Positions 49,381 to 63,981 of a DNA stretch of 64,000 nt are shown piece after piece (position 1 is the stretch's first letter; every line of letters starts with the position of its first letter). The stretch is from NCBI RefSeq assembly GCF_040564635.1, contig NZ_CP159837.1:1925001-1989000 (forward strand). The letters are read 5' to 3'. The stretch comes from Planktothricoides raciborskii GIHE-MW2. Lineage in GTDB: Bacteria; Cyanobacteriota; Cyanobacteriia; Cyanobacteriales; Laspinemataceae. The notes below the pieces were generated by a model. It did not search any database and was not told where the DNA came from. It was given only the letters and a program-made list of their open reading frames with translations. The position numbers and the translations under genes are program-made.

Positions 49381-50372
49381 ATATTCCACTTATTATTTGC
49401 ACAATTTTTTTGATAATTTTGGGGTTTTTTTTGGCAGGCGAAGTCCTCTTACGACTGAGATTTGGCTTGGGAACCCCTTTGATTTACTTGCCTGACCCGG
49501 AAATTGGCTATATTCTCGCGCCCAATCAACAAGTCCGTCGGTTAGGCAATTTAATTGCAATTAACCAGTATTCGATGCGGAGTCCGGTCATGGAAAAATC
49601 TCCCCCAGAAGGAACATGGCGGATTTTACTCCTGGGGGATTCGGTGGCCAATGGCGCCTGGTGGACCGACCAAGGTCAGACGATTTCCGCACTTATGACC
49701 AATCAGTTACAAGCAACTTGTTCAGCAACTTTATCCGCAGGGTCAACGGAGAGAACATCATCAAATGTCAAAAATATCCAGGTGGAAGTCCTCAACGCTT
49801 CTGCAAATTCTTGGGGGCCAAGGAATGAGTTAGCCTTTTTACGCCGGATGGGGAGTTTTGGCGCGAAGGTGGTGGTTTTACTGATTAATACCGATGATTT
49901 ATTTGCGGCAGCCCCTAGTTCTCTCCCGGTTGGGCGCGATCGCAACTACCCAGACAAAAAACCTGCCCTAGCCTGGTTTGAACTATTCACTCGTTACATA
50001 TTACCCGCCCCCAAAGTTCCCACCGCCCCCAAAGAACCGGGGGATCCGGTCGATCGCAACCTAGAAGCCATTCGACAAATCAAACTCTTAACCCAAGAAA
50101 GCAATAGTCATCTACTGGTGGCCATGACGCCACTCTTGAGAGAAACCGGCAACCCAACCACCCCACGGGACTATGAACAGAAAGCCAGGGCTAGGATACG
50201 GTCGTTCACCCAAGCCGAAAAAATTTTCTACCTGGATTTTTTACCAATTTTCAACCGCCAAGAACAACCAGCCAGCTTATACCGGGATCACATTCACCTC
50301 AGTCCCACCGGCAACCAGCTTGTCAGCCAAACCCTCTGCCAAATAATTCAACGAGAAACCGGGTTTCTATAA
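49377..50372 (+). CDS. SGNH/GDSL-family hydrolase with N-terminal anchor
   Basis: The 331-aa protein starts at a GTG with a hydrophobic helix (PLIICTIFLIILGFFLAGEVLL), so it is probably exported and membrane-tethered. SGNH blocks are visible: LLLGDSVANG (nucleophile Ser), SANSWGPRN (Gly/Asn region), and YRDHIHLSPTGN (catalytic Asp-x-x-His). Substrate is unknown; polysaccharide acetyl groups are a common target of such proteins. The C-terminal residues RETGFL are encoded by a copy of the AGAAACCGGGTTTCT repeat. Confidence 0.87.
   Translation: MNIPLIICTIFLIILGFFLAGEVLLRLRFGLGTPLIYLPDPEIGYILAPNQQVRRLGNLIAINQYSMRSPVMEKSPPEGTWRILLLGDSVANGAWWTDQGQTISALMTNQLQATCSATLSAGSTERTSSNVKNIQVEVLNASANSWGPRNELAFLRRMGSFGAKVVVLLINTDDLFAAAPSSLPVGRDRNYPDKKPALAWFELFTRYILPAPKVPTAPKEPGDPVDRNLEAIRQIKLLTQESNSHLLVAMTPLLRETGNPTTPRDYEQKARARIRSFTQAEKIFYLDFLPIFNRQEQPASLYRDHIHLSPTGNQLVSQTLCQIIQRETGFL
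50354..50368. repeat. AGAAACCGGGTTTCT repeat inside the SGNH gene end
   Basis: A single complete palindromic copy supplies the last codons (ETGFL) and sits just before the stop codon. Confidence 0.85.
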
Positions 50373-50404
50373 CAATTTTGGTGGCCTCACCTACGATTTT
50401 TTAA

Positions 50405-50715
50405 AGTATCGTAGGGTGCGTTAGCGACAGCGTAACGCACCATATTCTATGTCTTACGCAGTAGCGAAGTATCGTAGGGTGCGTTAGCGACAGCGTAACG
50501 CTTATTTCTATAAAAGAAAGCGCAAAGTATCGTAGGGTGCGTTAGCGACAGCGTAACGCTTATTTCTATAAAAGAAAGCGCAAAGTATCGTAGGGTGCGT
50601 TAGCGACAGCGTAACGCACCATATTCTATGTGCAGCATTTAACCTTCTCAAATCTGTTCATAGTATCGTAGGGTGCGTTAGCGACAGCGTAACGCACCAT
50701 ATTCCATATCTTACG
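50405..50715. repeat. Five-copy array of a cgtagggtgcgttagcg repeat
   Basis: Copies start at about 50405, 50468, 50526, 50584 and 50662. Each contains the near-palindrome gcgttagcgacagcgtaacgc, able to form a hairpin. Flanking sequence is also duplicated (ttatttctataaaagaaagc follows copies 2 and 3). The last copy runs into the stop codon of the oxidoreductase gene. Confidence 0.92.
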
Positions 50716-51838
50716 CAGGCACCGCCACGGGGTTAACACACTCCAGATTTGGCGAACTCCAGGCTTGGCCATCCAAAGCCATCTGCTCAATCACACTAGC
50801 CAAACGCAAAGCTTTAAGGGCTTGTTGACCGCCCACCGAAGGTTGCTGTCCACCCCGGACGCAATTCACAAAATGCTCTAACTCAGCGTGCAGGGGTTCT
50901 ATATTGCTGGTGTAAACTTTTTCAATCAAACCATCTTGGCGATAAAGCACTTGACCATAGTCCGTCATATAGTCCGCCGTAGTCTGCCGATGAATCAGAA
51001 TTTCATTATTCAGAAAATCCGCCTCAGTCAGGGAGTTGTGGCAATGAGCCATCAAACGGCGAATTTTGCGATGAGTCACCTTGCTGGCAGTTAGAGTGGC
51101 GACAACTCCATTGGCAAACCCCAGGGTGGCAGTGACATAATCCACGGGTGGGGCAGACTGTGCTTGCCTAATGGGCCAATGAGGGGTTTTCTTTTCGGCT
51201 TGATTGTGGTAAACCCGCGAACCGCTGGCCGTTAAGCGAATCACTGGAGAACCCACTAATTCCAACAGCAAATCAATATCGTGAATCATTAAATCCAAAA
51301 CCACGGAGACATCGTTAGCGCGATGAGAATATGGACTCATGCGATGGGCTTCTACAGCCAGTAACTCCTCGGTTTTCAGGACTTTACTGAGTTCTTGGAA
51401 AGCTGGGTTGAAGCGTTCAATGTGACCCACTTGCAGGATACAGCCCGAATCCGCAGCGGCATTAACTAAAGATTCGGCTTCCGCAATACTAGAGGCAATT
51501 GGCTTTTCAATTAAAACGTGAACCCCTGATTGTAGACAGGTCATGCCGACGGAGTGATGCAAGCGAGTGGGGACGGCAATACAGACCGCTTCTACATGGG
51601 GCAGCAAGTCCTGATAGTCTTCAAAAAACCGAATGCGATATTTGCTGGCGATGTCTAGACCTCTTTCCACATTGATATCCGCCACACCGACTAATTCAAT
51701 ATCTTTCAGCAGACTCAGAACACGAGTGTGATGTTGTCCCATGTTGCCCACCCCAATTACGCCAACTCTCAGGGGTTGAGGTTGACTGCGTACATGAGAA
51801 TTGATCGGTCGGGTTAAAATGTAATTATTGTTTTGCAT
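50711..51838 (-). CDS. Gfo/Idh/MocA family NAD(P)-dependent oxidoreductase
   Basis: The 375-aa enzyme has the Rossmann motif VGVIGVGNMGQHHTRVL at about residues 25-41, the family EKPIASSIAEAE motif and the GHIERFNPAF segment. The second domain carries MIHDIDLLLEL, with the His expected near the active site. Such enzymes oxidise or reduce sugars, often nucleotide sugars for polysaccharide synthesis; the substrate here is not evident. A promoter-like sequence lies about 75 bp upstream. The stop overlaps the final copy of the repeat array. Confidence 0.9.
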   Translation of the reverse strand: MQNNNYILTRPINSHVRSQPQPLRVGVIGVGNMGQHHTRVLSLLKDIELVGVADINVERGLDIASKYRIRFFEDYQDLLPHVEAVCIAVPTRLHHSVGMTCLQSGVHVLIEKPIASSIAEAESLVNAAADSGCILQVGHIERFNPAFQELSKVLKTEELLAVEAHRMSPYSHRANDVSVVLDLMIHDIDLLLELVGSPVIRLTASGSRVYHNQAEKKTPHWPIRQAQSAPPVDYVTATLGFANGVVATLTASKVTHRKIRRLMAHCHNSLTEADFLNNEILIHRQTTADYMTDYGQVLYRQDGLIEKVYTSNIEPLHAELEHFVNCVRGGQQPSVGGQQALKALRLASVIEQMALDGQAWSSPNLECVNPVAVPA

Positions 51839-51910
51839 TTTTGGTTTTTACTCCTCACACCATAAACAATTTGCCTGTCACGAGGCATTCGGGATCTCAC
51901 ACCACTTGTG

Positions 51911-51938
51911 ATAGTAACACAATGTATCTCTTTGTAAA
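51911..51938 (-). promoter_or_regulatory. Sigma-70-type promoter of the oxidoreductase gene
   Basis: On the minus strand TTTACA (51933-51938) and TACTAT (51911-51916) are separated by 16 bp and lie upstream of the gene starting at 51838. An AGGAG sequence precedes the ATG by about 11 nt. Confidence 0.5.
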
Positions 51939-52413
51939 GAATTTCAAAGTTACCTGGAAGTTCCTTAAGCAAAGGGAGAATAGATGGACAAAATTAATCG
52001 TAGTTATTTCTGAGCGATCGCTCTGATTAATTTTTTTTGGTATCAACTGACACTTCTATCTGTACCTTTGGACTTGAGAGAGAATCCGGAAAATTCATGC
52101 GGTGCCGGAAAATTAATTTTTTGTATCCTAGTTATCAGTGAGATAGTTGGGAGAGCTTGGTTGCGGTTTAAGGGGGCGCGATCGCGCCCCCTGCCAGAGG
52201 CATATCCCTGTATTTCTTATTGGCTTGACCATCCCATTTACTCGGTTATCAATCAATCAGATGAATCAATCAGCGGATTTTTAATTTTTTTACTTATTTT
52301 ATGGATTTTTCTCAATTACTAGGTTTATTTCGGCGCAAGTAGGGGCAGTTCGCGAACCGCCCATAATGCTTTTTTTATTAAAACCGGTATAATTTATAAT
52401 TTATTCTTTTTGC
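51939..52413. other. Spacer with a 22-bp palindrome centred on HIP1
   Basis: No supported gene. At 52171-52192 a perfect 22-bp palindrome (AGGGGGCGCGA and its complement) is built around a gcgatcgc core. A plus-strand open frame at 52068-52322 has a hydrophobic end but no recognisable relatives or ribosome site, so it is not called. Confidence 0.5.
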
Positions 52414-52458
52414 CATAAAAAAATAGAGATTTGCGGCAACAAATCTCTATTTTTTATG
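52414..52458. terminator. Strong bidirectional intrinsic terminator
   Basis: An A-rich arm 52414-52433 pairs with 52440-52458 around a short GC loop, giving A and T tracts on both sides. It lies downstream of the tautomerase gene on the minus strand and should end its transcript. Confidence 0.85.
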
Positions 52459-52479
52459 TTTAATAATTCATCCCCAAAA

Positions 52480-52494
52480 AGAAACCGGGTTTCT
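52480..52494. repeat. AGAAACCGGGTTTCT repeat downstream of the tautomerase
   Basis: One complete palindromic copy is followed at about 52533-52545 by a degenerate half copy next to the tautomerase stop codon. Confidence 0.8.
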
Positions 52495-52548
52495 AAAATA
52501 ACTTTTGCCGGAAATCGGAAATCTGATCAATAAATCCGGTTTCTGTAG

Positions 52549-52899
52549 TTAGAAAGTAGAACCATTCCAGCCCCACATCGAACCTTTGGCGTCATTAAAC
52601 TCAATATAAATGCGATTTTGGGGAACCCCCAGAGATTGATTAATTTTTTGGCAAAAATCCTCACTCATACTTTGAGTTTGAGTCGAAGTCATACTGCCAA
52701 TACTTTTAATTTCTATGTAACAAACTGGGTCGGTTGTTCCCGCAAAGGTCATCGGCACATCTGAGTCAAAAGCAGTCATTACATAAGACTCTGGCTTACC
52801 CAGATGTTTGGCTAAACTCGCGGAAAGGGTTTTAAGTAAACTTTCCACCTCTGTTTTTGGCGGAGTCGAAACCGTGGTTTTTACTGCGATCAAAGGCAT
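52549..52899 (-). CDS. MIF-like tautomerase
   Basis: The 116-aa protein matches the macrophage migration inhibitory factor / phenylpyruvate tautomerase family. It begins MPLIAVKTT, with Pro2 as the catalytic base after Met removal. It contains LGKPESYVM, CYIEIKSIG and the C-terminal RIYIEFND. The fold is a trimer of beta-alpha-beta units. The physiological substrate in cyanobacteria is unknown. It follows the flavin reductase gene by about 88 bp on the same strand, and a terminator lies downstream. Confidence 0.93.
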   Translation of the reverse strand: MPLIAVKTTVSTPPKTEVESLLKTLSASLAKHLGKPESYVMTAFDSDVPMTFAGTTDPVCYIEIKSIGSMTSTQTQSMSEDFCQKINQSLGVPQNRIYIEFNDAKGSMWGWNGSTF

Positions 52900-52987
52900 A
52901 AATCAAACAAGCAATGATGGACTAAGGAAAATTCAGAATCGCGAGGTAGCCGCGCTGAATGGATTTAATTAAAATACTCGGATTTTT

Positions 52988-53485
52988 TTATCCACCGTAA
53001 TTCCATCCGGTACTTTCCAGCAAGAGGGGCTCACCCTCTCGGTGAACTCCGGCAGCAATCACTTCTCCGACATAAACGGTATGATCGCCATGTTCCACGG
53101 AACCCACGACTTTGCACTCTACATAGCCCAAAGAGTCGGAGATAATAGGACAGCCAGTTTCTCCTATGTAGGATTCCACGTCTTCAAACTTATTGCCCAC
53201 CAGACGCTGAGGCTTAAAGAATTTTTGCGCCACATCTTTTTGACCAGCTTCGAGGACGCTGAGGGAAAAAACCCCACTGGCTTTGATCATGGCGTGAGAA
53301 ATCGAGTCACTTTTGACGCAGTTGACGACCAGAGGGGGCTGAAAGGAAGCCTGCATCACCCAACTGGCGGTAAACCCGTTGACATTTTCCCCGTCACAGA
53401 CTCCACAGATGTAAAGCCCGTGGGGGATTTTCCGCAGAATTGTTTTTTTGGCTTGTTCGTCTAGCAAGGGATTCAGTAGCTCCAA
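52988..53485 (-). CDS. Flavin reductase-like FMN-binding protein
   Basis: The protein (about 165 aa from the chosen start) is a flavin reductase-like split-barrel protein. It contains ILRKIPHGLYICGV, GENVNGFTASWVMQASFQPP, VVNCVKSDSISHAMI, FSLSVLEAGQKDVAQKF and HGDHTVYVGEVIAAG. It resembles the C-terminal flavin reductase module of cyanobacterial flavodiiron proteins but is stand-alone. The frame is open to 53569, yet those upstream residues look non-coding. The start is unresolved: a TTG at 53485 (LELLNPLLDEQAKK) fits homologues best, with no clear ribosome site. Confidence 0.87.
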   Translation of the reverse strand: MELLNPLLDEQAKKTILRKIPHGLYICGVCDGENVNGFTASWVMQASFQPPLVVNCVKSDSISHAMIKASGVFSLSVLEAGQKDVAQKFFKPQRLVGNKFEDVESYIGETGCPIISDSLGYVECKVVGSVEHGDHTVYVGEVIAAGVHREGEPLLLESTGWNYGG

Positions 53486-53590
53486 GGATATGACATTGCA
53501 CAGTTTACCAAAATTATTATCTCCAGATGCGACTCTTGGGCGATCGGGCCCGGTGCCGAGATATCGCAATCAAGTTCCCGCTACCCAACT

Positions 53591-53718
53591 AAGTAGACGG
53601 GCAGAAATAAATGCATCACAGACCAGATCAGAAGAAAAACTGTCATTCCCGCGCAGGCGGGAATCCAAAGCCTATCGGCGGAGAACGAAAAGTGCAATTG
53701 ATTATGTTCACCTACTTA
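53591..53718 (+). repeat. Left copy of a ~128-bp inverted repeat
   Basis: This segment includes gtcattcccgcgcaggcggg and agcctatcggcgg. It matches the reverse complement of 56304-56432 along its length with scattered differences. The two copies flank the zinc-ribbon pseudogene and the NB-ARC gene. A short piece recurs at about 55867-55893. Confidence 0.88.
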
Positions 53719-53787
53719 TAAACATCACCCACCGATATCGGTGGGCATTTTCCGAGGAATTCGATAAATCGCCAGAGTATCATTAAG

Positions 53788-54159
53788 TTAGCTAAAGAAA
53801 TTTTTAATGGTTTCAAATACCGTTTCTTCTTTGTAATCTTTGAATTCTCCCGCATCAAACCACATCCCATAGCAAACGGGACATTTTTCATAAAAAATAT
53901 GGGATTGTTTCAAGTCCGTATTTTGGTCATCTTGGTTTGACATTTGGGACAGTTAATTTCTCTGGTTTGATTAAATTTTTGGCCGGTTTGCGGATCTCCT
54001 ACATCGATACTTTCAGCCCCTTTGATTTCCTTGAGTTCTTGGGCTTCGAGAGAATCAAACCAAATTCCCTGACATTCCGTACAACGGTCTACAGTAATGC
54101 TGGCATAGACCACTTCGGATAAAGTTCCTTGGCATTTCGGGCTTCGGAAGTTGAGTCAT
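53788..54159 (-). pseudogene. zf-TFIIB zinc-ribbon protein, frameshifted twice
   Basis: Combining frames gives SPKCQGTLSEVVYASITVDR then CTECQGIWFDS, CPKCQTKMTK, TDLKQSHIFYEKCPVCYGMW and FDAGEFKDYKEETVFETIKN, a complete two-ribbon zf-TFIIB protein of about 120 aa. An extra base near 54145 breaks the N-terminal frame from the ATG at 54159. A missing base near 53920 breaks the middle, leaving a TGA after KIRT. All four zinc-binding Cys pairs survive. Either the gene is dead or the assembly has two indel errors. Confidence 0.78.
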
Positions 54160-54318
54160 TATTTTTGCCTAATTTTTAGCTTCATTATTCCCACTATCTT
54201 AACATATATATTGCTGGATATCACCCCCACCACCGGGAAATTAAATCTGCTGGATCCCAATTCGAGCCTTTTAGGATTAAATCCACAGTATCATTCACCA
54301 TTTCTGGGTTTATTAACA

Positions 54319-55833
54319 TTACTCAATAAATTGATAAATTTTGTTATATTTCCGATTAAAATACTGCCGCATTACGGGTTGAAGGGTAAATCGAGTAATT
54401 TTTTGGGCTGTTTCTTTGGTAATCAAGGAACGACGGATTAAGGATTGCATGGCATCAGGAAGATTAGCAGGGGAAATGGGGAGTATGTCTCGCAATTTAG
54501 CCAAAGAAAGCGATTCCGACTCTGCGGCTAAAGCAGAAATAACCTGTTGTTCTAATTCCGATAAGCGATCGCACTGCTGTTGTAACCTAAATTGCAAATC
54601 TTCCGGTAAAAATAACGGGTCATAATCAAATAATTCCTCCACGTTGCCGCCAAACAAATCGGTAATCATGGTAGCAACTATTTTTAACCAAAGGGGGTTT
54701 CCTTGGTACTGATGAATCAATTTGTCCCAGTGGCGATCGGGGATTAAACCTTGTTGGCTTAAAAGTTCTCTAGCGGGTGCAATACTTAACCCATTTAATT
54801 GTAATGAATGACAATATTGATTCGTGGATTCTACGTCAGCAATTTCTTTAGGTGGTTCTGAACTAATCAGCAACAAGCAAGATGAGTGAGAGAGTTCAGC
54901 CACTTGTTTAAATAGGCAGCCATAATCCTCATAACCAGTTCGGTAATAACCCGCGAATTTTCCCCTATCGAAAAGCATTTCTACATCATCGAGAATCACC
55001 AAACAGCGAAACTTGCGGAAGAATTCTAGCAGTTCCGATATCGATTCCTTCCGGTGCGATTCTGTTACGGAGATTCGCGGGTTTCCCAATAAAGAGTAAG
55101 TAGGATAATTTGAGCAAAATTGCCGGATACTTTGCTGAAGTAATTCTAGGGTTGGGGCAGAACGCAAACTGCGCCAAATTACATAATCAAATTTATCTTT
55201 AATTTGCTCGATTAACTTCACTGCCAGGGTAGTTTTGCCGATGCCACTAATACCCAAAAGTTCTACCAAGCGCGATCGCTCTTTTACTATCCAATTTTCT
55301 AATAAACTGAGTTCATCTTGCCGTCCGTAGCAAGCAAAAATTTCCGGGGCTTCACTTAAATCTTGACAGGGGATATTCTCAGGGGAAGGCAGGAGAGAAA
55401 GGGAAGAGATATTTAACTGAGTTTCCAATTCATGCAATAAATCGCGATCGCTGGGCTGAGATATTTCTAAAGATTCCCAATCATTTGCCACCTCATTTCT
55501 CTGTGCAAAAGCTTTACCAAACTGTAAGACAAAAGAAAATCGCCATCGTCTTTCTAATGCCGAGCGAAAATTGCCTTTATTAACAGCTTCACCCAAGATA
55601 TCAGAGAGTGCCTGCCACAACTTAAACCCCACTTCTTTCACATACACTTCAGAACGGTGGTGTGCCTCGGCAATTTCCCGATATTTATGATTATCCCAAG
55701 CCCCGCGCAAAATAGCCTGTTGCAAACTATCCAGGTGTTTTCCCGTCATTGCAAATATCAGATGGTCAGCAAATTCCAAGACTTCTTCGATATCCATTTC
55801 CCTGGTATATGTCAATAGTTTGGCGTATAGCAA
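54319..55833 (-). CDS. NB-ARC STAND ATPase with vWA-MoxR-associated-type N-terminal domain
   Basis: The 504-aa protein begins with a helical domain (DIEEVLEFADHLIFAMTGKH, YREIAEAHHRSEVYVKEVGF) common at the N-terminus of cyanobacterial NB-ARC/WD40 proteins. The NB-ARC ATPase follows: Walker A GISGIGKTT at about residue 198, YVIWRSLRSAP, and Walker B CLVILDDVE near 283. It ends after the winged-helix region (FTLQPVMRQYF) with no sensor repeats. AGGAGAGAG lies just before the TTG at 55833, supporting that start; an ATG at 55797 aligns with relatives. STAND ATPases act as signalling or defence switches, so a conflict role is inference. Confidence 0.85.
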   Translation of the reverse strand: MLYAKLLTYTREMDIEEVLEFADHLIFAMTGKHLDSLQQAILRGAWDNHKYREIAEAHHRSEVYVKEVGFKLWQALSDILGEAVNKGNFRSALERRWRFSFVLQFGKAFAQRNEVANDWESLEISQPSDRDLLHELETQLNISSLSLLPSPENIPCQDLSEAPEIFACYGRQDELSLLENWIVKERSRLVELLGISGIGKTTLAVKLIEQIKDKFDYVIWRSLRSAPTLELLQQSIRQFCSNYPTYSLLGNPRISVTESHRKESISELLEFFRKFRCLVILDDVEMLFDRGKFAGYYRTGYEDYGCLFKQVAELSHSSCLLLISSEPPKEIADVESTNQYCHSLQLNGLSIAPARELLSQQGLIPDRHWDKLIHQYQGNPLWLKIVATMITDLFGGNVEELFDYDPLFLPEDLQFRLQQQCDRLSELEQQVISALAAESESLSLAKLRDILPISPANLPDAMQSLIRRSLITKETAQKITRFTLQPVMRQYFNRKYNKIYQFIE

Positions 55834-56303
55834 TTCTCTCTCCTGATGAAGTACAGATTAAAAACCTGTCATTCCCGCGCAGGCGGGAATCCATCTTTTT
55901 ATGTAGACAGAGAATTTATCTATTATAACCAACTAAATCCACCTTTTTCCACCCCACCCAGCTAAATCCACCTTTTTCCACCCTATTTTGGGTCTAAAAT
56001 TCCCTACTTTATCCAGCTTGATCCATCTAGACAAATTTTCTAGATTTATCGGATAATAAGTATCCATACTATTCTTAGGATTTGTAACTGTTGCCGGGAA
56101 AATCCCAGTTTAATCGTAGGGGCGAAGCATTCCGGCAGAAGTTCGATGGTTAAAAGCAAAAATTTATTCCCGGAATGCTTCGCCCTTAGATGCTGAAAAA
56201 CCGAGATGAATTACAGTCAATATCACGCCCTTATATGCTGAACAACTAATAATTTATCTCCCAGACTTCGTAGGTTGGGTTGAGGAACGAAACCCAACAT
56301 TGC

Positions 56304-56432
56304 TAAGTAGGTGAACATAATTAATTGCACTTTTCGTTCCCCGCCGATAGGCTGTGGATTCCCGCATTCGCGGGAATGACAGTTTTTTTTCTCATGGGGT
56401 CTGCGGTGCATTTATTTCGGCTCGTCTACTTA
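56304..56432 (-). repeat. Right copy of the ~128-bp inverted repeat
   Basis: Reverse complement of 53591-53718 with scattered mismatches, including the cattcccgc hairpin, the cctatcggcgg core and the aataaatgca segment. It has no coding capacity. Confidence 0.88.
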
Positions 56433-56627
56433 TTAGGGTTGAGTTGGGTTTCCTGGCGTCAACCCAACCTACAATTTTACAGTGGAGTGACGCATGACCG
56501 TAATAAATTGCTGCTTTTAACCACAAATATCTCCCAGAATGTATCCCCGGATTAAGGGCGAAGCATGACCGTAATAAATTTCTGCTTTTAACCACAAATA
56601 TCTGCGGTCATGCTTCGCCCCTACAAC

Positions 56628-56725
56628 AAAAAAAGCCCCCATTATTAAGGTGCTTTGGGGCGATCGAACAAAATTTTATCCGCAAAAAAAGCCCCCCTTA
56701 TTAAGGGCGGTTGGGGCGATCGAAC
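56628..56725 (-). terminator. Tandemly duplicated minus-strand terminators
   Basis: Two direct copies of an element reading aaaaaaagcccc...ggggcgatcgaac start at about 56628 and 56684. On the minus strand each is a GCCCC/GGGGC stem followed by seven U, a good intrinsic terminator. They would block antisense transcription leaving the HerA operon promoter region. Confidence 0.6.
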
Positions 56726-56758
56726 CAATTATCTAATTAACTCATTCAGGATTTAACC

Positions 56759-57712
56759 ATGATGACATCAGACGATTACGACAAAATCATCAAACAAAAA
56801 ATTGCCAAGGGAGAAATCGTGAAAGTGCCTCCCAAGACGCCGCCAATTCTGATTGAAAATTGGGTCGTCTGGGAATATACCGCCTGTCTCTATACCAATG
56901 GAATTATCCTCACAACTGCTGAGTTACACAATTGGTTGAAAGCGGAAATGGAACATCAGCAAATTCCCGTAAATATCTTTTTTGCTAACAACGCTTGCTG
57001 GGTCATAGAAGGGGCAAGAGGTCGAGCAAAAGTGGATGAAGATTTCCGCCCCAGAGTGGTCGCGAGTCTGACCAATTCTCCTTATACAGATATCCAATTT
57101 ATTGCCGGACTTGATTATTTTGGCGACTACTGGGTTAACTTCCAAATGATGTTAATTGTCCAGCCAGAAGAAATTGAAGACCCACCTCGTCCCGTTCCTC
57201 CACTCCGTCCTCAACCGCCTAAAGCACCCAATGTGACTTCTCCAATTCCTAATGCGGCGTTAGTAGTTATGGCATTCGTCGCTGTGGGCTTAACATTTTC
57301 GGGAAATCAAGGGTTAGGATTTCTGGGATTTCTGGGAATTGTCGGAACAGGAATTATTTGGTTTATCAGTAAAATTTCCAGGGAAGCCGCTGCTGAGTAT
57401 GAGAGAAAGCTCGCTCAGTACAATCGAGAAGAAAAAGACTGGAAAGAGCAAAAAGAACAAGCCGAGAAAGATTGGCACCGAGAATTAGACAAAATTGCCA
57501 TCGAAAGAGAAGAACTGAAGAAAAATCGGCTGTCTCGCAGTTTTAAATGGGATGACTTGAGAGTATTTCACGAAGTAATGTCGCTCTCCGTGGCCAGAGT
57601 TATTCACAAAAATCTGCTGCAAAAAGGCGCCACGGTGAAAGAAACCCAAGAACTGAATAAAAATGAGGAAATTATTCCGAAAAGCAAAAAAGATATTTTT
57701 GATGATTTCTAG
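56759..57712 (+). CDS. Membrane coiled-coil protein, first gene of the HerA operon
   Basis: I do not recognise this 317-aa protein. Residues 1-140 form a soluble domain (WVVWEYTACLYTNGIILTTA, NACWVIEGARGRAKVDEDF). A Pro-rich linker follows (PPRPVPPLRPQPPKAP), then two membrane helices at about 165-205 (ALVVMAFVAVGLTF, GFLGIVGTGIIWFIS). A charged coiled coil at about 208-260 and a short helical tail complete it. The second gene starts 8 bp after its stop, so the two are almost certainly cotranscribed. It may anchor or regulate the HerA-like ATPase; that is inference. Confidence 0.8.
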   Translation: MMTSDDYDKIIKQKIAKGEIVKVPPKTPPILIENWVVWEYTACLYTNGIILTTAELHNWLKAEMEHQQIPVNIFFANNACWVIEGARGRAKVDEDFRPRVVASLTNSPYTDIQFIAGLDYFGDYWVNFQMMLIVQPEEIEDPPRPVPPLRPQPPKAPNVTSPIPNAALVVMAFVAVGLTFSGNQGLGFLGFLGIVGTGIIWFISKISREAAAEYERKLAQYNREEKDWKEQKEQAEKDWHRELDKIAIEREELKKNRLSRSFKWDDLRVFHEVMSLSVARVIHKNLLQKGATVKETQELNKNEEIIPKSKKDIFDDF

Positions 57713-57720
57713 GAAACATT

Positions 57721-60441
57721 ATGCTCAGTTTAACCCCTATATCTTCTGGAGTTCGCTATTGGCGTGGGTCGGCAGTCAGCAAAGGACAGCCGCAAGAAAT
57801 TGATGAATATCGCAGCCATGAAATTAATGTTTATCGGCTAAAGGCGATTCCTGATTTTGCTTCCGGTCGCTTTAAACTGATGGAACATTTAGACCCATCG
57901 GCACGAGTAGGCTTTGTGGTGAGTTGGCAAAAAAACTTGCTCAAAAGTTTGGCCTATTTTAGTTATTTGCAATCTGCTGATATTCAGCAACAGGATATTT
58001 CCTGCGGTTATAGTTTGAGAATTATTTATCAACCGAGTCGGGAGATATCTGGAACGAGTACGGAGATTTATTTGTTGGCTAGAGTTGCCAGTAATGACCC
58101 CAGTCTCACCGCTAGGGTTCAACGTCAACAAGCGGAGTATTTCAATAGTAGTCTGCGATCGCCCCTATACCAATTTGAATACATTGAGAGCGATCGCGAC
58201 CTGCCTTGGTTGAAAAACCAGGACGCGGTATCTTGTTATGAAATTATCAAATCTGAAGAAGTTTTTCAGTGGCTAGAAGCAGATAAAAAATATTTTTATT
58301 CTCCGGGTAATTTCTCAGTGAATAAGGGCAATAATATGATGGCTTTATTCGAGCAAATCCAAGGATATCGCCATCAAGTTTGCATTGACCTGACCCTAGT
58401 TCCTACGCAATTAGAAGCCTACGAGAAAAAGGTGGTTTCCCGATATCTAGAAGCGTTATCCGAGGCCGGACGAGGCATCCGCGAGGAAGAAGTTGACCCC
58501 GATAGCAATACTCAGAAAGCGAAGACCGTCTATGAGGAAATTAAAAAAAAATATTATTCGGGAATTATCTTTCTTTCTAGCTTTAGAGTTTTCTCTCCGA
58601 GTCGAGAAACCTGCCAAAATGTTGCCAGTCAATTAGCGGCTTCTTGTACCGCAAACACTGTCAGTCCCAGAATCATTGAAGTCAACGATACGAGATATGC
58701 GGTGCAAACAGCTTTACAAGTGAATATTAATGACGAAATCGCTGTTTCTGGGATTTGGAATGTGAGGGGAAATAGACCGGATGGTTTCCCCGGTGGGCCA
58801 GAAACCATGAAGCGATTTCATCGCATTGTAGACTTAGATGAAGCCTCGGCTTTTTTCCGGTTGCCAGTGCCCATTAATCAACCCTGTCCGGGGGTGCGCT
58901 ACGATAGCGGTTCGGCATTTGTAGCCGAAAAATCTAAAGGGCAAACGATTAATATCGGTCATTACTATCGCAATGTCAAAACCAATGAAATTTGCGATTT
59001 TGATATTGAACAATTAAAAACTCATCTGTTAGTGGTGGGTGGTTCTGGCAGTGGGAAGACTACCACAACTTTTAATTTACTCACCCAGCTTTGGGGTAAA
59101 CATGGGATTCCCTTTATGGTGTTCGATCCCAAGGTGACACCGGAGTATCGCTATTTAAAACGACTCCCAGAATTTGAGAAAGATTTGCTGATTTTTACTC
59201 CCGGTCAAGAGTTTATTACCCCTTTGCGGATGAACCCTTTTGATGTGATTCCCGGAATTCCGGTACAGGAGCATATTTCTCGGATATTTGACTGTTTTAT
59301 GGGGGCATTGCCTCTAGAAAATCCTCTCCCGGCTTTTATTCAGGAAGCGATCGATTATCTGTATGAAAAAAAACGATGGCAGCTTGCTTACAGTCAGGGA
59401 GGAGATTTGGACAAAAATGGGCAATCTTTAGAAGTTCCTACGATGCCAGAATTCTATGACAAAGTTTTGGATTTAGCCCAAAAAAATTATGGCAGCGACA
59501 AGGAGGTGGGCGATCGCATTAAAGGAGCACTGAAAGCCAGACTTTATCGACTGGTTGCCAACAGTGGCATCGGGTTAATGTTTCAAGCAAGTCGCCCTCT
59601 GCCATTAGCGGATTTGATGAGTAAACCAGTAATTTTTGAACTCGGCGGACTGAACAAACAAGAACAATCGTTATTTTCCTTATTTATTTTAGTGTTTGTA
59701 TTCGAGTATGTCCGCGCCGTCCGGGTGGGTCAGTTTCAGCCACAACGAGAAGGGGAACGAGCCACAGACCTCGATTTACGTCATGTTTTGCTAGTAGAAG
59801 AAGCCCACAATCTTTTGGGTCAAATGTCCGCTTCCGGTTCCGGTGAAGAGGGCAATTCCAAAAATGAAGTGATTGATAAGTTTGCTCAAATTATGCGAGA
59901 AATGCGGGCAGGGGGGGAAGGGGTCATTGTGGTTGACCAGTCTCCCGCAGCTTTGGCGCAGTCGATTGTGGATGCGACAAATTTAAAGTTAATGCACCGT
60001 TTGCCCTCGCCGGGCGATCGCGAATATCTCGGCAGTGCCATGTGTTTAACCGAAGGAGAAGCACAATTATCCGGCATTTTTTCTCCGGGAGAATGTTTTT
60101 ACTATGTGCCTGGTTGGGATGCGGCAAAAAGAGTGGCCACCGATAACTTTAAGGCGAAACCGGGAGTGCAAGAAAAATTAGCACGGCCTTTTAAAGATGA
60201 AGAAGTGATTCAGGCAATGGATGACTTTATGCAGCAGGACAGAGCATCTTTAATTTCGGGCTTGAAAGCGATCGTTAACCAGCTATCGGCAAATATTTCT
60301 GGATTAAAGGAAATATTAAACAGTAGCCAGGTAGAAGCGGTCAAAGAAGGGTATAAAGCGCAGATTAAACAAAAACAAAAACTACGGGACAGCTTTGAAA
60401 AACAACTTGATATATTATCCCAAACCCAGAGGAAACAATAA
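57721..60441 (+). CDS. HerA/VirB4-like hexameric-type ATPase
   Basis: The 906-aa protein has an N-terminal region of about 420 residues without recognised family, then a HerA-FtsK superfamily ATPase domain at about 420-800. Walker A is VVGGSGSGKTTTTF near residue 437, Walker B LLVEEAHNLL near 690, and VIVVDQSPAALA is a sensor-like segment. MREMRAGGEG supplies a candidate Arg finger. The C-terminus is helical. Relatives pump DNA or protein, and several partner with nucleases in phage defence. Here the partners are membrane coiled-coil proteins, not an obvious nuclease. Gaps to neighbours are 8 and 2 bp. Confidence 0.87.
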   Translation: MLSLTPISSGVRYWRGSAVSKGQPQEIDEYRSHEINVYRLKAIPDFASGRFKLMEHLDPSARVGFVVSWQKNLLKSLAYFSYLQSADIQQQDISCGYSLRIIYQPSREISGTSTEIYLLARVASNDPSLTARVQRQQAEYFNSSLRSPLYQFEYIESDRDLPWLKNQDAVSCYEIIKSEEVFQWLEADKKYFYSPGNFSVNKGNNMMALFEQIQGYRHQVCIDLTLVPTQLEAYEKKVVSRYLEALSEAGRGIREEEVDPDSNTQKAKTVYEEIKKKYYSGIIFLSSFRVFSPSRETCQNVASQLAASCTANTVSPRIIEVNDTRYAVQTALQVNINDEIAVSGIWNVRGNRPDGFPGGPETMKRFHRIVDLDEASAFFRLPVPINQPCPGVRYDSGSAFVAEKSKGQTINIGHYYRNVKTNEICDFDIEQLKTHLLVVGGSGSGKTTTTFNLLTQLWGKHGIPFMVFDPKVTPEYRYLKRLPEFEKDLLIFTPGQEFITPLRMNPFDVIPGIPVQEHISRIFDCFMGALPLENPLPAFIQEAIDYLYEKKRWQLAYSQGGDLDKNGQSLEVPTMPEFYDKVLDLAQKNYGSDKEVGDRIKGALKARLYRLVANSGIGLMFQASRPLPLADLMSKPVIFELGGLNKQEQSLFSLFILVFVFEYVRAVRVGQFQPQREGERATDLDLRHVLLVEEAHNLLGQMSASGSGEEGNSKNEVIDKFAQIMREMRAGGEGVIVVDQSPAALAQSIVDATNLKLMHRLPSPGDREYLGSAMCLTEGEAQLSGIFSPGECFYYVPGWDAAKRVATDNFKAKPGVQEKLARPFKDEEVIQAMDDFMQQDRASLISGLKAIVNQLSANISGLKEILNSSQVEAVKEGYKAQIKQKQKLRDSFEKQLDILSQTQRKQ

Positions 60442-60443
60442 CC

Positions 60444-61304
60444 ATGAGTGATTTCAAGAAATCTAAAAAATCCGCTGACTCAAAGCGCTCTCACTCAGAC
60501 AGTTCTGGGACAGACCTTGATGCTTTGTGTGAGGAAATTGAGGAGGCAGACCGAGAGGCTACGGAGCAAATTGAAATTCTAGAAATTAAGATTCAAGAAA
60601 TTGAAGGTCTGGAGGAGAAGCTAAACTCTGTATCAGAAAAATTGAGTGGAATTGAAGGAGATGCATTGGAAAAGGCCAGAGAAGAAATTCTGAGAGAAAT
60701 AAGCGAAAAAAGAGCGGCGGCGGATGAGTGTGAAAGGAAACTAAAAGAAATTCAGGATGATCTGGTTGAAAAACGGTCGGAAATTGCCAAAGAAATCGGG
60801 CACCGCGATGAAGCACTATTGGACATTGAAAGTGCCCAAGAAAAGTGCGATGCGGATCTCAGCGATGCTAAAGATGCCGTGAATGAAGAAAAGGAGAAAT
60901 TTGAAGAGGCTCAGAACAAAATAGGGGAAGTCCTTGAAAAAATTGATGAAGCGCTTGCGGGTTATCAAACAAAAAAGTTTGAAATGTTGGCTTCTCAAGC
61001 GAACAGATTCTTGAATTCATCAATTGACAATATTTCTCAAACCGCCAAAAATTCTGTGGCAGGATTTATGCTATTTACTGGTCTGGTTAGCGCAATATTA
61101 GATGTGAATAACCGTGTATTTGCTGCGATATTTCCTGATTCAACTTTTTCGACGATTAAAGAAATGTCTAATAAAAATGAAGAATGGGCAAGCATCTCTA
61201 GTTCAGAATGGTTAGATATAGACTCGGTAATGGAAACAAAACGAGAAAAAAGACGCGATGCTGCTAATAAAAATCGTAAAGCAAACTCAATTAGTAGCAA
61301 ATAA
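60444..61304 (+). CDS. Coiled-coil membrane protein, third gene of the HerA operon
   Basis: The 286-aa protein begins with a Lys/Ser-rich segment, then a long Glu/Lys-rich coiled coil at about residues 25-175 (LEIKIQEIEGLEEKLNSVSE and similar). A hydrophobic stretch at about 203-228 (SVAGFMLFTGLVSAILDV) and a basic tail follow. No family is recognised. It starts 2 bp after the HerA stop, so translation is likely coupled. The shared layout with gene 1 (coiled coil plus membrane helix) suggests both assemble with the ATPase at the membrane; that is inference. Confidence 0.8.
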   Translation: MSDFKKSKKSADSKRSHSDSSGTDLDALCEEIEEADREATEQIEILEIKIQEIEGLEEKLNSVSEKLSGIEGDALEKAREEILREISEKRAAADECERKLKEIQDDLVEKRSEIAKEIGHRDEALLDIESAQEKCDADLSDAKDAVNEEKEKFEEAQNKIGEVLEKIDEALAGYQTKKFEMLASQANRFLNSSIDNISQTAKNSVAGFMLFTGLVSAILDVNNRVFAAIFPDSTFSTIKEMSNKNEEWASISSSEWLDIDSVMETKREKRRDAANKNRKANSISSK

Positions 61305-61312
61305 GTGTTGTC

Positions 61313-61545
61313 GATCCCCCCTAACCCCCCTGAAAAAGGGGGGAACCGGAGAAAAACCCCTTAAAAATGGGGAGAATCGGAAAATTATTGTCAACTGAAT
61401 TATTCCTCATTTTGACACGAGGCAGAGCCTCACTCTGGGGCATTCCCACGCAGAGCGTAGGAACGAGAGATATGAAGTAAAAATTTATGCCTCTGGCTCT
61501 CCCCTTTTTAAGGGGGGCGGGGGGATCAAAGAGGTAGAGGGAAAT
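61313..61545. repeat. ccccctaacccccctgaaaaagg-type inverted repeats and gaggcagagcctc repeat
   Basis: The left arm (61315-61345) and right arm (61498-61535) are complementary ccccc/ggggg blocks. Between them lies a gaggcagagcctcactctggg...aacgagag element of a type common in cyanobacterial spacers. It separates the HerA operon from the IMS-domain gene. Confidence 0.75.
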
Positions 61546-61579
61546 CAAAACTAAGCTGAATCTTAATCAATGTAAAACT

Positions 61580-62218
61580 ATGAACAACGAACAAGAAGAA
61601 AAGCGTAAACTTTGGAAAATATACGGCATTTTAATGGGCGTAATGGTCGGTGGTGCGGTGTTAATTTTGGGCACCCAAGCCGCTTGGAATGCCATCCAAC
61701 GGCATTCGGCAAAATCTACAGAAGCAGAAACATCCGCCGAACCAGAAACTCCCTCAAATTCATCGACTTTACCCAACCCTCCGGTCAGTAGCCAATATAA
61801 TAGTCAGCCGACTCAGCCGACTATTCCTAGTGGTTTAAGTCAGCAAGAAGCAGTGAATTTAATTAATCAATGGTTACAAGCTAAGGGGAAAATTTTTGCT
61901 CCCCCGTTCGATCGCCAGCTACTTGCCCAATATACGCATACTCAAGGAAAGCTTTACCAAGATATTGTTAAACTACAAGGGCCTATGGATTGGCTGAGAA
62001 GCACAGGTTCTTATTATACTTTTAACCAATCTCAAATTATAGAGGTTATTGAGTTTTCTACTTCGGGTGAATTGCCTGTGTTAAAAGTGAAAATTTCTGA
62101 AAATATGGTTTTTTATAATGGCGAACAAAATAAGCGGGAGACCAAAGCTTCTACTAATAGTTATACTTATACTTTTCGTCAACAGCAAGGAAGTTGGAAA
62201 ATTGAGGATTATCAGTAA
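61580..62218 (+). CDS. Single-pass protein with IMS (DUF4101/ARC6-like) domain
   Basis: The 212-aa protein has a short cytoplasmic N-terminus, one membrane helix at about residues 12-32 (IYGILMGVMVGGAVLILGT) and a Ser/Pro linker. A C-terminal domain from about 90 (LSQQEAVNLINQWLQAKGKI, SYTYTFRQQQGSWKIEDYQ) matches the IMS domain seen in cyanobacterial Ser/Thr kinases and in ARC6/Cdv proteins. Here it stands alone without a kinase. The domain is a protein-interaction module facing the periplasm or lumen. It is probably transcribed from its own promoter. Confidence 0.75.
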   Translation: MNNEQEEKRKLWKIYGILMGVMVGGAVLILGTQAAWNAIQRHSAKSTEAETSAEPETPSNSSTLPNPPVSSQYNSQPTQPTIPSGLSQQEAVNLINQWLQAKGKIFAPPFDRQLLAQYTHTQGKLYQDIVKLQGPMDWLRSTGSYYTFNQSQIIEVIEFSTSGELPVLKVKISENMVFYNGEQNKRETKASTNSYTYTFRQQQGSWKIEDYQ

Positions 62219-62243
62219 GGCTAGTTGAACAGAGTAATCATTA

Positions 62244-62462
62244 GCGCGATCGCTCTTTTTATTTCTCCTAAATAAATCGATAAATTCACCACAGAACTCT
62301 GTCGGACACAAAGATTAGTCTGAGTCAGGAGGCGCGATCGCTTATAAGATCAACCATGCTATATTTATCATTGGTGAAGACTAACATCGAAATCATTGTG
62401 CCGCCACACAACAGACAGGAACCCTTTGCACGGTTATTTCTCCGAATTATCGAGATGTGGCA
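62244..62462 (+). repeat. 219-bp direct repeat, copy 1
   Basis: Nearly identical to 63562-63780. Both copies start at a gcgcgatcgctctttttatt sequence, include a ttgtgtcc-type repeat fragment and end at gagatgtggca. They bracket the STAS-like/PIN gene pair. In one frame both encode RNHCAA-QQTGTLCTVISP, and copy differences there are mostly synonymous, so the 3' part was coding. Confidence 0.93.
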
Positions 62463-62580: not shown

Positions 62581-62943
62581 ATGGGAACCCAAAATATGAG
62601 ACACCAGATCCACGACCTAATAGGATTTGCTTGCATGACCCCCGATGAAGGCCAGAAGGTCTATGATTTGATTTACCCAGAACTTTTGGCCGATCGCCCG
62701 GTAGAACTTGATTTTGCTGGAGTGGAAATTTTTGCCTCTCCCTTTTTCAACTTTGCCATTGGGCAGCTACTCAGAGATATTTCCCCAGATACCTTAAACC
62801 GTCTGCTGAAATTTTCTCACCTGAATGCGATCGGTAAACAGGTACTCAAGCGAGTCATTGAAAACTCAAAGCAATATTATGCTAATGAAAAGACTCGCAA
62901 GACAGTAGACCAAGTTTTGAGCGAACAAGCAAATAGTCTCTAA
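62581..62943 (+). CDS. STAS-like domain protein (DUF4325)
   Basis: The 120-aa protein contains VELDFAGVEIFASPFFNFAIGQLL, the core of the STAS-like DUF4325 family, usually found beside an HATPase-type regulator. The ATG overlaps the stop of an upstream open frame (TAATG at 62579-62583), which covers about 62396-62581 and ends CDEARYILASETDDQELFF. That frame could be the tail of a lost upstream partner. The stop of this gene in turn overlaps the PIN gene start (TAATG at 62941-62945). The arrangement suggests a coupled two-gene unit, perhaps antitoxin-toxin-like. Confidence 0.82.
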   Translation: MGTQNMRHQIHDLIGFACMTPDEGQKVYDLIYPELLADRPVELDFAGVEIFASPFFNFAIGQLLRDISPDTLNRLLKFSHLNAIGKQVLKRVIENSKQYYANEKTRKTVDQVLSEQANSL

Positions 62944-63548
62944 TGGCAGTTAACTATACAGTTCAAGCGGAAGTCGTTGATATTCGGTCTGACACACCGA
63001 AAGAAGATGATATTTTTCTAGTAGACACTAATGTTTGGTACTGGCTGACTTATACTCAAGCCAGTCGGTCAGCATTGCCTTACCAAATTACCGACTATCC
63101 GAATTATATATCAAAAGCTCTTAGTAGGAAATCACTACTGTTATATTGTGGTCTTTCTTTATCGGAGTTAGCCCACAATATTGAGCAAACAGAAAGAGAA
63201 ATATTTAATTCTAATTTAAGACCCAAGGAATATCGTCATAATTATCCCACCGAAAGAGCGAATGTTGTGGCTGAAATTCAAGCCTCTTGGAGCCAAGTTA
63301 CATCGATCGCTGTCTCCACAGATATCACGATTAATGAAGCAACGACTAAAACCGCTTTAACTAGATTTTCCACCCAACCACTTGATGGTTATGATTTGCT
63401 GATTTTAGAAGCAATGGAAAAAGCCGGGATTATTCAAGTTATTACTGATGATGGTGACTATATAACTGTTCCTGGTATTAGGGTATTTACAGCTAATCAA
63501 AATGCGATCGCAGCGGCAAGTAACCAAAACAAGCTTTTAATTCGCTAA
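62943..63548 (+). CDS. PIN domain ribonuclease-like protein
   Basis: The 201-aa protein has PIN-domain acidic residues: Asp28 in FLVDTNVWYW, Glu in LSLSELAHNIE, Asp in LDGYDLLILEAM and Asp in VITDDGDY. This is the four-acid pattern of metal-dependent RNases such as VapC, though it is longer than typical VapC toxins (about 130 aa). It overlaps the STAS-like gene by one base. RNA target and toxicity are unknown. The pair sits between two direct repeats, suggesting transfer as a cassette. Confidence 0.87.
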   Translation: MAVNYTVQAEVVDIRSDTPKEDDIFLVDTNVWYWLTYTQASRSALPYQITDYPNYISKALSRKSLLLYCGLSLSELAHNIEQTEREIFNSNLRPKEYRHNYPTERANVVAEIQASWSQVTSIAVSTDITINEATTKTALTRFSTQPLDGYDLLILEAMEKAGIIQVITDDGDYITVPGIRVFTANQNAIAAASNQNKLLIR

Positions 63549-63561
63549 CTGTTAAATAGTT

Positions 63562-63780
63562 GCGCGATCGCTCTTTTTATTTCCCCTCAATAAATCGATA
63601 AATTAACCACAGAGACACAGAGGACACAAAGATTAGTCTGAGTCAAGAGGCGCGATCGCTTATAAGATCAACCATGCTATATTTATATCTGGTGAAGACT
63701 AAGATCGAAATCACTGTGCTGCCGCACAACAGACAGGAACCCTTTGCACGGTTATTTCTCCGAATTATCGAGATGTGGCA
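63562..63780 (+). repeat. 219-bp direct repeat, copy 2
   Basis: Second copy of the repeat at 62244-62462, starting 13 bp after the PIN stop codon. Its 3' end continues in frame into a further 66 codons of coding-like sequence, unlike copy 1. Confidence 0.93.
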
Positions 63781-63981
63781 AAAGGGAAAATTGTTGTGAT
63801 TACAGACATGATCCGCTCTTTGTGGGAGTCGGCTGGTTATGTTCTTTATGATAAAGCTTACTCAAGTCGCCGAATTCAGCAAAATCAAACTCCTCAAATG
63901 GCTAGAATGAATAATCAGGCTAAAGCTAATCAAATTATGCTGACTGACATTACAGAAATTTTGACATTTCGCAGGCTTTGA
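63703..63981 (+). pseudogene. C-terminal gene fragment, possibly from a DNA methyltransferase
   Basis: After a TAA at 63700 the frame reads DRNHCAAAQQTGTLCTVISP, then KGKIVVITDMIRSLWESAGY, VLYDKAYSSRRIQQNQTP and ends ITEILTFRRL. The pattern of a hydrophobic strand followed by an amphipathic helix and AGYVLYDK resembles the final part of N4/N6 DNA methylase domains, but no catalytic motif is present. No proper start is visible; a GTG at 63775 exists. It is probably a 5'-truncated gene created at the repeat. Confidence 0.4.

Follow-up and report, generated by a model that had tools for sequence, protein, structure and literature searches.

DNA repair and nuclease-coupled defence are the roles in which HerA-type motors are most familiar. 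What such a motor might do in the company of membrane proteins is the question raised by a locus near the end of a 64,000-nt stretch (the window) of the Planktothricoides raciborskii GIHE-MW2 genome (contig NZ_CP159837.1, positions 1,925,001 to 1,989,000 of the forward strand), a 7.2 Mb single contig in which the central gene of the locus, B, is matched once. An initial annotation had described a three-gene operon, here A, B and C, in which an ATPase (B) lies between two proteins proposed to combine coiled coils with membrane helices. A fourth gene, D, which that annotation overlooked, lies downstream of C and belongs to the same conserved block. Our answer, which is tentative and held with rather less than even confidence, is that A-B-C-D encodes an accessory, envelope-associated motor complex, in which A would dock the motor, C would act as a scaffold, D would supply proteins built of a stem and a head, and B would move a polymer.

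Results

The ATPase encoded by gene B

The open reading frames (ORFs) of A, B and C, all on the + strand, are separated by 8 bp (A/B) and 2 bp (B/C), and their coordinates and lengths (Table 1) are exactly those initially annotated. The assignment of the B product to the HerA/FtsK superfamily was borne out by its Walker A and B motifs and by a match above cut-off to the Pfam DUF87/HerA central domain (42.8 bits against 23.2; 8.4e-11); FtsK_SpoIIIE barely passes (24.6 bits against 24). Conservation of the motifs was read in an alignment of 17 hand-picked rows. Walker A residues G440, G443, G445 and K446 and Walker B residues E693, E694, A695 and H696 were invariant in 17/17 rows, as were, at the level of sequence, R729 and Q740, which by analogy are candidates for the arginine finger and the sensor-1 glutamine. 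A sensor-1 glutamine with a preceding arginine finger is a criterion for the HerA clade in the available portion of PMC10853773. A profile of 17 B relatives matched ten solved sequences in the PDB, with HerA-type or DUF87 ATPases in the first six places (1e-15 to 7e-10), and the 906-aa B is longer than the solved HerA chains matched (500-696 residues). By its sequence, B is placed in the HerA clade of the FtsK-HerA superfamily.

Matches of B to Pfam and PADLOC were confined to the ATPase part, from about residue 398 onward; the N-terminal ~395 residues, where the HAS barrel, another criterion of the clade, was sought, gave no family match in Pfam, NCBIfam or PADLOC. The best PADLOC match was mad8 (mads_8, 62.3 bits), with HerA models matching too, and the best from NCBIfam, where all were below cut-off, was the serine-rich protein NF033849 (60.7 against 650 bits); mad8 and NF033849 both match the ATPase part only. 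PHROGs returned a family of unknown function (48.8 bits). Against the NCBIfam equivalogs for classical HerA and anti-phage HerA, B reached 24.1 of 970 and 23.1 of 800 bits, and it scored 14.6 bits against a coupling-protein profile with a cut-off of 20.5.

Conservation of A, B and C

Comparison genomes and loci are designated by G- and L-numbers, G402 being of the same species as the window and G503 of the same genus. The B profile, applied at 1e-60 to 388 genomes of the order, matched 17, six of them with orthologs (the window genome, G439, G562 and G611, plus G649, where B is broken, and G618, where it is cut) and 11 with distant relatives (219-344 bits, best place in each). A draw of 386 genomes from the phylum gave a B relative at 1e-30 in ten, with the window genome holding the only ortholog; a further ortholog was found in a Phormidesmis metagenome-assembled genome (MAG; L003). 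Since L002 and G439 C72 carry the same genes, they were counted once. A was detected at 1e-3 in 8/388 genomes, strongly (472-534 bits) in five, where it always adjoins B, and at 21-27 bits elsewhere; the sixth B copy begins at a contig end, with its A out of view. Wherever there is sequence upstream of B, A adjoins it (6/6 loci: window, G439, L003, G562, G611 and G649), and C follows B in 7/7 loci, namely those six plus G618, as a fragment near the contig end in G649 and as two ORFs in the Phormidesmis MAG (L003:4644-5515), reflecting either a real break or an assembly error. The possibility, raised in the initial annotation, that the three genes do not occur together elsewhere can be set aside on these counts.

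In a tree of 28 hand-picked B rows, the five full-length orthologs form a cluster of their own (100/100) with a long branch (1.61). Its neighbour (97/96 for the pair) holds three cyanobacterial ATPases, one fecal contig and one viral-collection contig; two of the three cyanobacterial ATPases have coiled-coil partners with two transmembrane helices (2TM). Ratios of nonsynonymous to synonymous substitution (dN/dS) between G562 and G611 were 0.38 for A, 0.155 for B and 0.38 for C; five of the other seven pairs were saturated, and the remaining two, both for C, gave 0.34 and 0.29. A, B and C are under purifying selection in the measurable pairs.

The two-helix hairpin of A was predicted in 6/6 orthologs, and the protein has in addition a long charged helix run and a conserved C-terminal segment, RLSRSFxxDDLRV. 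Nothing significant was found for A in Pfam, NCBIfam or PADLOC. Its linker, hairpin and coil weakly resemble (21-27 bits) other cyanobacterial proteins (L063, L064 and L065), in which the domain that follows is, going by a motif, presumably of nuclease type; such regions are prone to compositional matches, and the likeness to nuclease-like membrane proteins was kept as a weak lead only. The coiled coil of C is read from composition and from weak similarity to coiled-coil regions in other families, all library matches (SMC, PbeC, JetC and others, in Pfam, NCBIfam and PADLOC) being of the coiled-coil kind.

Conserved stems and exchanged heads in gene D

D begins with a stem that carries its one predicted membrane helix, near the N-terminus, and ends in a head. 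With a D-stem profile, 11 places scored strongly (93-103 bits), and the genomes that contain them are exactly the six of the order with B orthologs (1, 1, 2, 2, 2 and 3 copies per genome); apart from two genomes taken up in the Discussion, the remaining matches were of 24 bits or less, and 25/388 genomes reached 0.01 in all. Identity between copies is 67-98% for the stems, or 49-58% where one of the pair is from G439; among the heads it is 36-97% within a kind and 17-41% between kinds. One clear head swap was seen between G611_1 and G618_1, where the stem is 98% identical and the heads differ. About five kinds of head were distinguished. Pfam identified an ARC6-like IMS domain in the copy from the window and in one from G562, and the heads of G439 and of the first G649 copy align with these (36-97%), hence they were taken as the same kind; the four other kinds had no Pfam match better than 0.065. 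The PHROGs match of D was weak (Zot-like, 19.8 bits).

The distance from C to D is 275 bp in the window. Because it is only 17-77 bp in the four orthologous loci of G439, G562, G611 and G618, the inverted-repeat stretch between C and D (Table 1) was read as an insertion. In G439 a gene for a VanY-type peptidoglycan peptidase (L044:13935-14642) begins 2 bp after D.

Strain difference at the site and the case for defence

Comparison with G402 showed 99.57% identity over positions 50000-56062 of the window and 100% over the 286 bases from 63715 to its end, with about 7.6 kb of the window differing. At the same site G402 holds an operon (L050:8394-12523) of four genes, whose products measure 371, 178, 389 and 428 aa; the 389-aa product is a DUF87 ATPase. 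Next comes a gene for a 640-aa Schlafen AlbA_2 protein, which matches PADLOC pAgo at 74.7 bits. The window keeps the tail of a 428-aa gene of the G402 type (Table 1), and the simplest reading is therefore that the A-D cassette replaced most of that operon. G503 has other content at the site, and neither G402 nor G503 has B or a strong A. The A-D cassette is accessory. The G402 DUF87 ATPase was considered as a near relative of B and rejected (terminal branch about 10, with 34% of columns filled).

This patchy distribution (6/388 genomes, with absence from the same-species and same-genus genomes), together with the different DUF87-ATPase operon and Schlafen protein at the G402 site, would suit a membrane system of anti-phage or anti-plasmid defence, in which the D heads or A would sense invasion and B would intercept or extrude incoming DNA or trigger cell arrest. 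That A and C evolve faster than B, that PADLOC mad8 and HerA models match the motor, and that the A linker and hairpin weakly resemble proteins with a presumed nuclease-like C-terminal part point the same way. So, to a degree, do the neighbours. PADLOC was run on ten neighbourhood proteins (two near the G562 operon, four near the G611 operon, the G439 VanY, two from the G503 site and an Rpn-like gene of the window), and 5/10 matched, all five being from G562 or G611 and lying no more than about 6 kb from the operon. In G562, LeoBC-like (55 bits) and PD-Lambda-2_B-like (63 bits) genes lie about 4-6 kb past D, LeoA being also named among the LeoBC/LeoA-like matches; in G611, A is preceded at a distance of about 2 kb by a PtuB-like gene (46 bits), and the D copies are directly followed by a pair of genes (L046:14442-15129) resembling PD-Lambda-2 A (97 bits) and B (77 bits). 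The G439 VanY, the two G503-site proteins and the Rpn-like gene gave no PADLOC match. A similar-looking gene pair follows the D copies in G618.

These PADLOC matches somewhat favour the defence reading, but the genes concerned may be ordinary toxin-antitoxin or HNH genes, and the G439 neighbours look ordinary by eye. The PADLOC matches of B itself are limited to its ATPase part. An effector nuclease or NADase partner, or a SIR2, TIR or other effector domain, was not recognised in A or C (Pfam, NCBIfam, PADLOC) or in D (Pfam and PHROGs only), in agreement with the initial annotation, which saw no nuclease or SIR2. HerA-SIR2 is a defence pair and, like the HerA-nuclease and DUF4297-HerA pairs, it resembles A-D in having a HerA-clade motor and an accessory distribution; all of these carry an effector enzyme, whereas A-D has a membrane hairpin and stem-head proteins instead. 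The DUF4297-HerA pair was compared through the available portion of PMC11291478. Membership in classical HerA defence was rejected for want of an effector partner among A-D, and we regard a defence role of the membrane type described above as doubtful. The available text of PMC10853773 and PMC12839542 describes DndH and BREX-related capture of HerA/FtsK motors into accessory operons, as here, in systems that carry restriction nucleases and DNA-binding modules; none of these was recognised at our locus.

Distant relatives of B and the case for protein remodelling

Distant relatives, 21-29% identical to B in alignment, were found on plasmids of Streptomyces, Rhodococcus, Priestia, Hymenobacter, Planktothrix and Anabaena and in other cyanobacteria. 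These long DUF87 ATPases, which are spread over several phyla, share with B a long N-terminal region and the same motor motifs, and some of them adjoin membrane, coiled-coil or Hsp70 genes. Neighbours were tested at 15 hand-picked loci with mechanically called ORFs; three of the loci had no same-strand upstream gene within 300 bp. The nearest same-strand upstream gene had a predicted membrane helix in 8/12 cases, against 44/144 background ORFs (Fisher p 0.021); the test is small and several loci are close kin rather than independent, so that the result is indicative only. The A and D profiles found no partners at the distant loci, and the C profile gave two weak coiled-coil matches (12 and 22 bits). 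The common feature is therefore one of layout, with homology unproven.

B was matched in 40 plasmid records, all below 60% identity (26.5-32.6% in the 20 listed), and A had no match in plasmids. In a phage collection B matched two unannotated fecal contigs; a search of viral contigs with the ortholog profile was negative, and a wide B profile found ten viral-collection loci (25-33%). A phage or plasmid origin of the ortholog group was considered and rejected.

Hsp70 genes lie a few genes downstream of the B relative in L097, L098 and L099, which are three of the ten viral-collection loci (nine inspected), and on an Anabaena plasmid the B relative is immediately preceded by a GTPase gene, with an annotated Hsp70 gene farther upstream. 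Such neighbours, with the small ARC6-like IMS domain that forms the D head in the window, could be taken to suggest a chaperone-like or stress-signalling complex whose motor remodels protein rather than DNA. Yet A-D contains no Hsp70 or GTPase, the Hsp70-like-looking ORFs before the L102 and L103 relatives had no Pfam match, and the nearest cyanobacterial clade in the B tree has 2TM and coiled-coil partners; we consider remodelling of protein very unlikely.

Two further observations concern the distant loci. In L097, L098 and L099 the gene for a DUF87 ATPase of ~1084-1091 aa precedes, on the same strand, genes first for a ~525-aa protein and then for Hsp70; the ~525-aa protein of L097, the only one of the three scanned, has a Big_2 domain. 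The gene directly after the distant B relative in L088 (8862-9836) encodes an MshEN domain, which binds cyclic di-GMP.

Comparison with DNA transfer machines

In the available portion of PMC5365140, TdtA of Thermus is a HerA-like, hexameric, membrane-bound ATPase needed for DNA donation, and it resembles B in its kind of ATPase, in the small operon on variable DNA that encodes it and, as proposed for B, in working at the membrane. The same text gives TdtA a mass of ~64 kDa and describes an integrative and conjugative element that encodes it together with a NurA-like nuclease, a type IIG restriction enzyme and a methylase. No such partner gene was present among A-D or in the two genes that follow D; the search did not extend to integrases. 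The available text of PMC11868833 describes archaeal DNA import by CedB/CedD, a HerA/VirB4-like motor with membrane coupling, as here; Ced differs in that no CedA-like gene was recognised at our locus, where at most two helices are predicted in any of A-D.

With these precedents for a HerA-clade motor and a membrane partner, the operon might encode a machine for DNA export or exchange, comparable to TdtA transjugation or Ced import, and the weak NCBIfam match to CedD (52 bits against a cut-off of 600; CedB, 15.6 against 700) and the VanY-type gene in G439 would be in keeping with this. However, that gene was seen in one locus only, no relaxase, NurA, channel protein or pilin was recognised among A-D, and the window contains no tRNA; in our judgement such a machine is quite unlikely. 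Pfam scans of A-D and NCBIfam scans of A, B and C, to which the search was limited, gave no relaxase, VirB6-like multi-pass channel or pilus parts, and membership in a conjugation or type IV secretion system was rejected because these partners are missing among A-D.

Neighbouring genes in the window

The initial annotation placed the operon in a conflict island. As far as the window was examined this did not hold, as its ORFs from 1 to 52 kb are mostly ordinary by eye and the difference between strains is short. Among the genes cited in its favour, NB-ARC is real, PIN falls just under cut-off (23.2 against 23.6 bits) and the Rpn-like gene found no PADLOC counterpart. At 62581-63548 a DUF4325 (STAS-like) gene overlaps a PIN-like gene by one base. 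The two are apparently flanked by direct repeats of ~218 bp (about 62245-62462 and 63563-63780), which were inferred because both match the same G402 stretches, and the pair is possibly a cassette of its own. Repeats of ~130 bp, present in very many copies in G402 and G503, occur near the left edge of the variable stretch (~53590-53720 and ~56304-56434).

Table 1. Coordinates of the operon and associated features in the window.
Feature	Position	Strand	Description
Gene A	56759..57712	+	317 aa ORF; N-terminal soluble domain (no known family), Pro-rich linker, two-helix membrane hairpin, helical stretch, conserved C-terminal segment
Membrane hairpin of A	about 57245-57301 and 57311-57367	+	predicted helices, residues 163-181 and 185-203
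Gene B	57721..60441	+	906 aa ORF, HerA-clade ATPase by sequence
Walker A of B	59038..59061	+	GGSGSGKT, residues 440-447
Walker B of B	59788..59808	+	LLVEEAH, residues 690-696
R729 to Q740 of B	59905..59940	+	arginine-finger candidate to sensor-1 glutamine candidate
Gene C	60444..61304	+	286 aa ORF; long coiled coil; weakly hydrophobic segment, residues 203-221; short conserved N-terminus, FKxSKK
Inverted-repeat stretch between C and D	61313..61527	.	imperfect repeats
Gene D	61580..62218	+	212 aa; stem, linker, head
D stem	61580-61714	+	45 residues; predicted membrane helix about 61619-61675
D head	61850-62206	+	ARC6-like IMS domain (Pfam)
Stretch differing from G402	56063..62244	.	apart from short dispersed repeats
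3′ remnant	63775..63981	+	68 aa; tail of a 428-aa gene, complete in G402 (L050 11237-12523)

Discussion

The reading that we tentatively prefer is an envelope-associated motor complex. B, as a translocase of the HerA clade, would most likely form a hexameric ring that A docks on the inner face of the membrane; the hairpin of A would lie in the membrane with both flanking domains in the cytoplasm, and C would be a coiled-coil scaffold or tether. The D proteins would cross the membrane once; the complex would recognise the in-membrane stem that they have in common, and their interchangeable heads, outside, would decide what is sensed or contacted there. ATP hydrolysis by B may move a polymer at or across the membrane; we infer from other HerA-clade motors that this polymer is most likely DNA. 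This reading is supported by the HerA-clade motor, the co-occurrence of A, B and D, the hairpin predicted in 6/6 A orthologs, the predicted helix of D, the contrast between its stems and heads, purifying selection, and the membrane genes upstream of distant B relatives. TdtA and CedD, as described in the available portions of PMC5365140 and PMC11868833, may serve by analogy as precedents.

Several findings weigh against this reading. C, initially annotated as a membrane protein like A, has no membrane helix above the hydropathy threshold of 1.6 in 5/5 orthologs (best 19-residue value 1.55 in the window and 1.06-1.55 across the five, window included), so that of the features first proposed for the flanking proteins the coiled coil of C and the membrane helices of A stand and the membrane helix of C does not. 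A D-like stem of 33 bits occurs in G129 and G543, neither of which is among the B-matching genomes, with no B relative near it, and no D stem was found on the L003 contig, where about 1 kb remains after C. At the distant loci, downstream partners were not enriched in membrane proteins (2/13, p 0.35), and the Hsp70 genes beside some of these relatives could point to the handling of protein rather than DNA. Defence-type matches lie near two of the orthologous loci. Finally, no multi-pass channel, relaxase or nuclease was recognised in A-D, and nothing therefore shows a DNA substrate or passage across the membrane.

A more specific form of the envelope-associated complex, possible though on the unlikely side, would be an undescribed envelope machine in which a HerA-clade motor beneath the membrane drives or presents stem-head proteins, with the stem as docking signal and the heads exchanged by recombination, such that one motor could serve many specificities. 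The initial annotation could not name a system of this composition, and in our searches no named system matched over its length. Neither the operon nor stem-head proteins of the D type were recognised in the open-access literature, with subscription papers and preprints mostly not covered.

If the envelope-associated reading is true, a membrane hairpin and surface proteins that swap heads would extend HerA-type motors to a function in the envelope. The D stem provides a handle for finding what the machine recognises, and the two DUF87-ATPase operons found at one site in one species are testable alternatives at a single locus.
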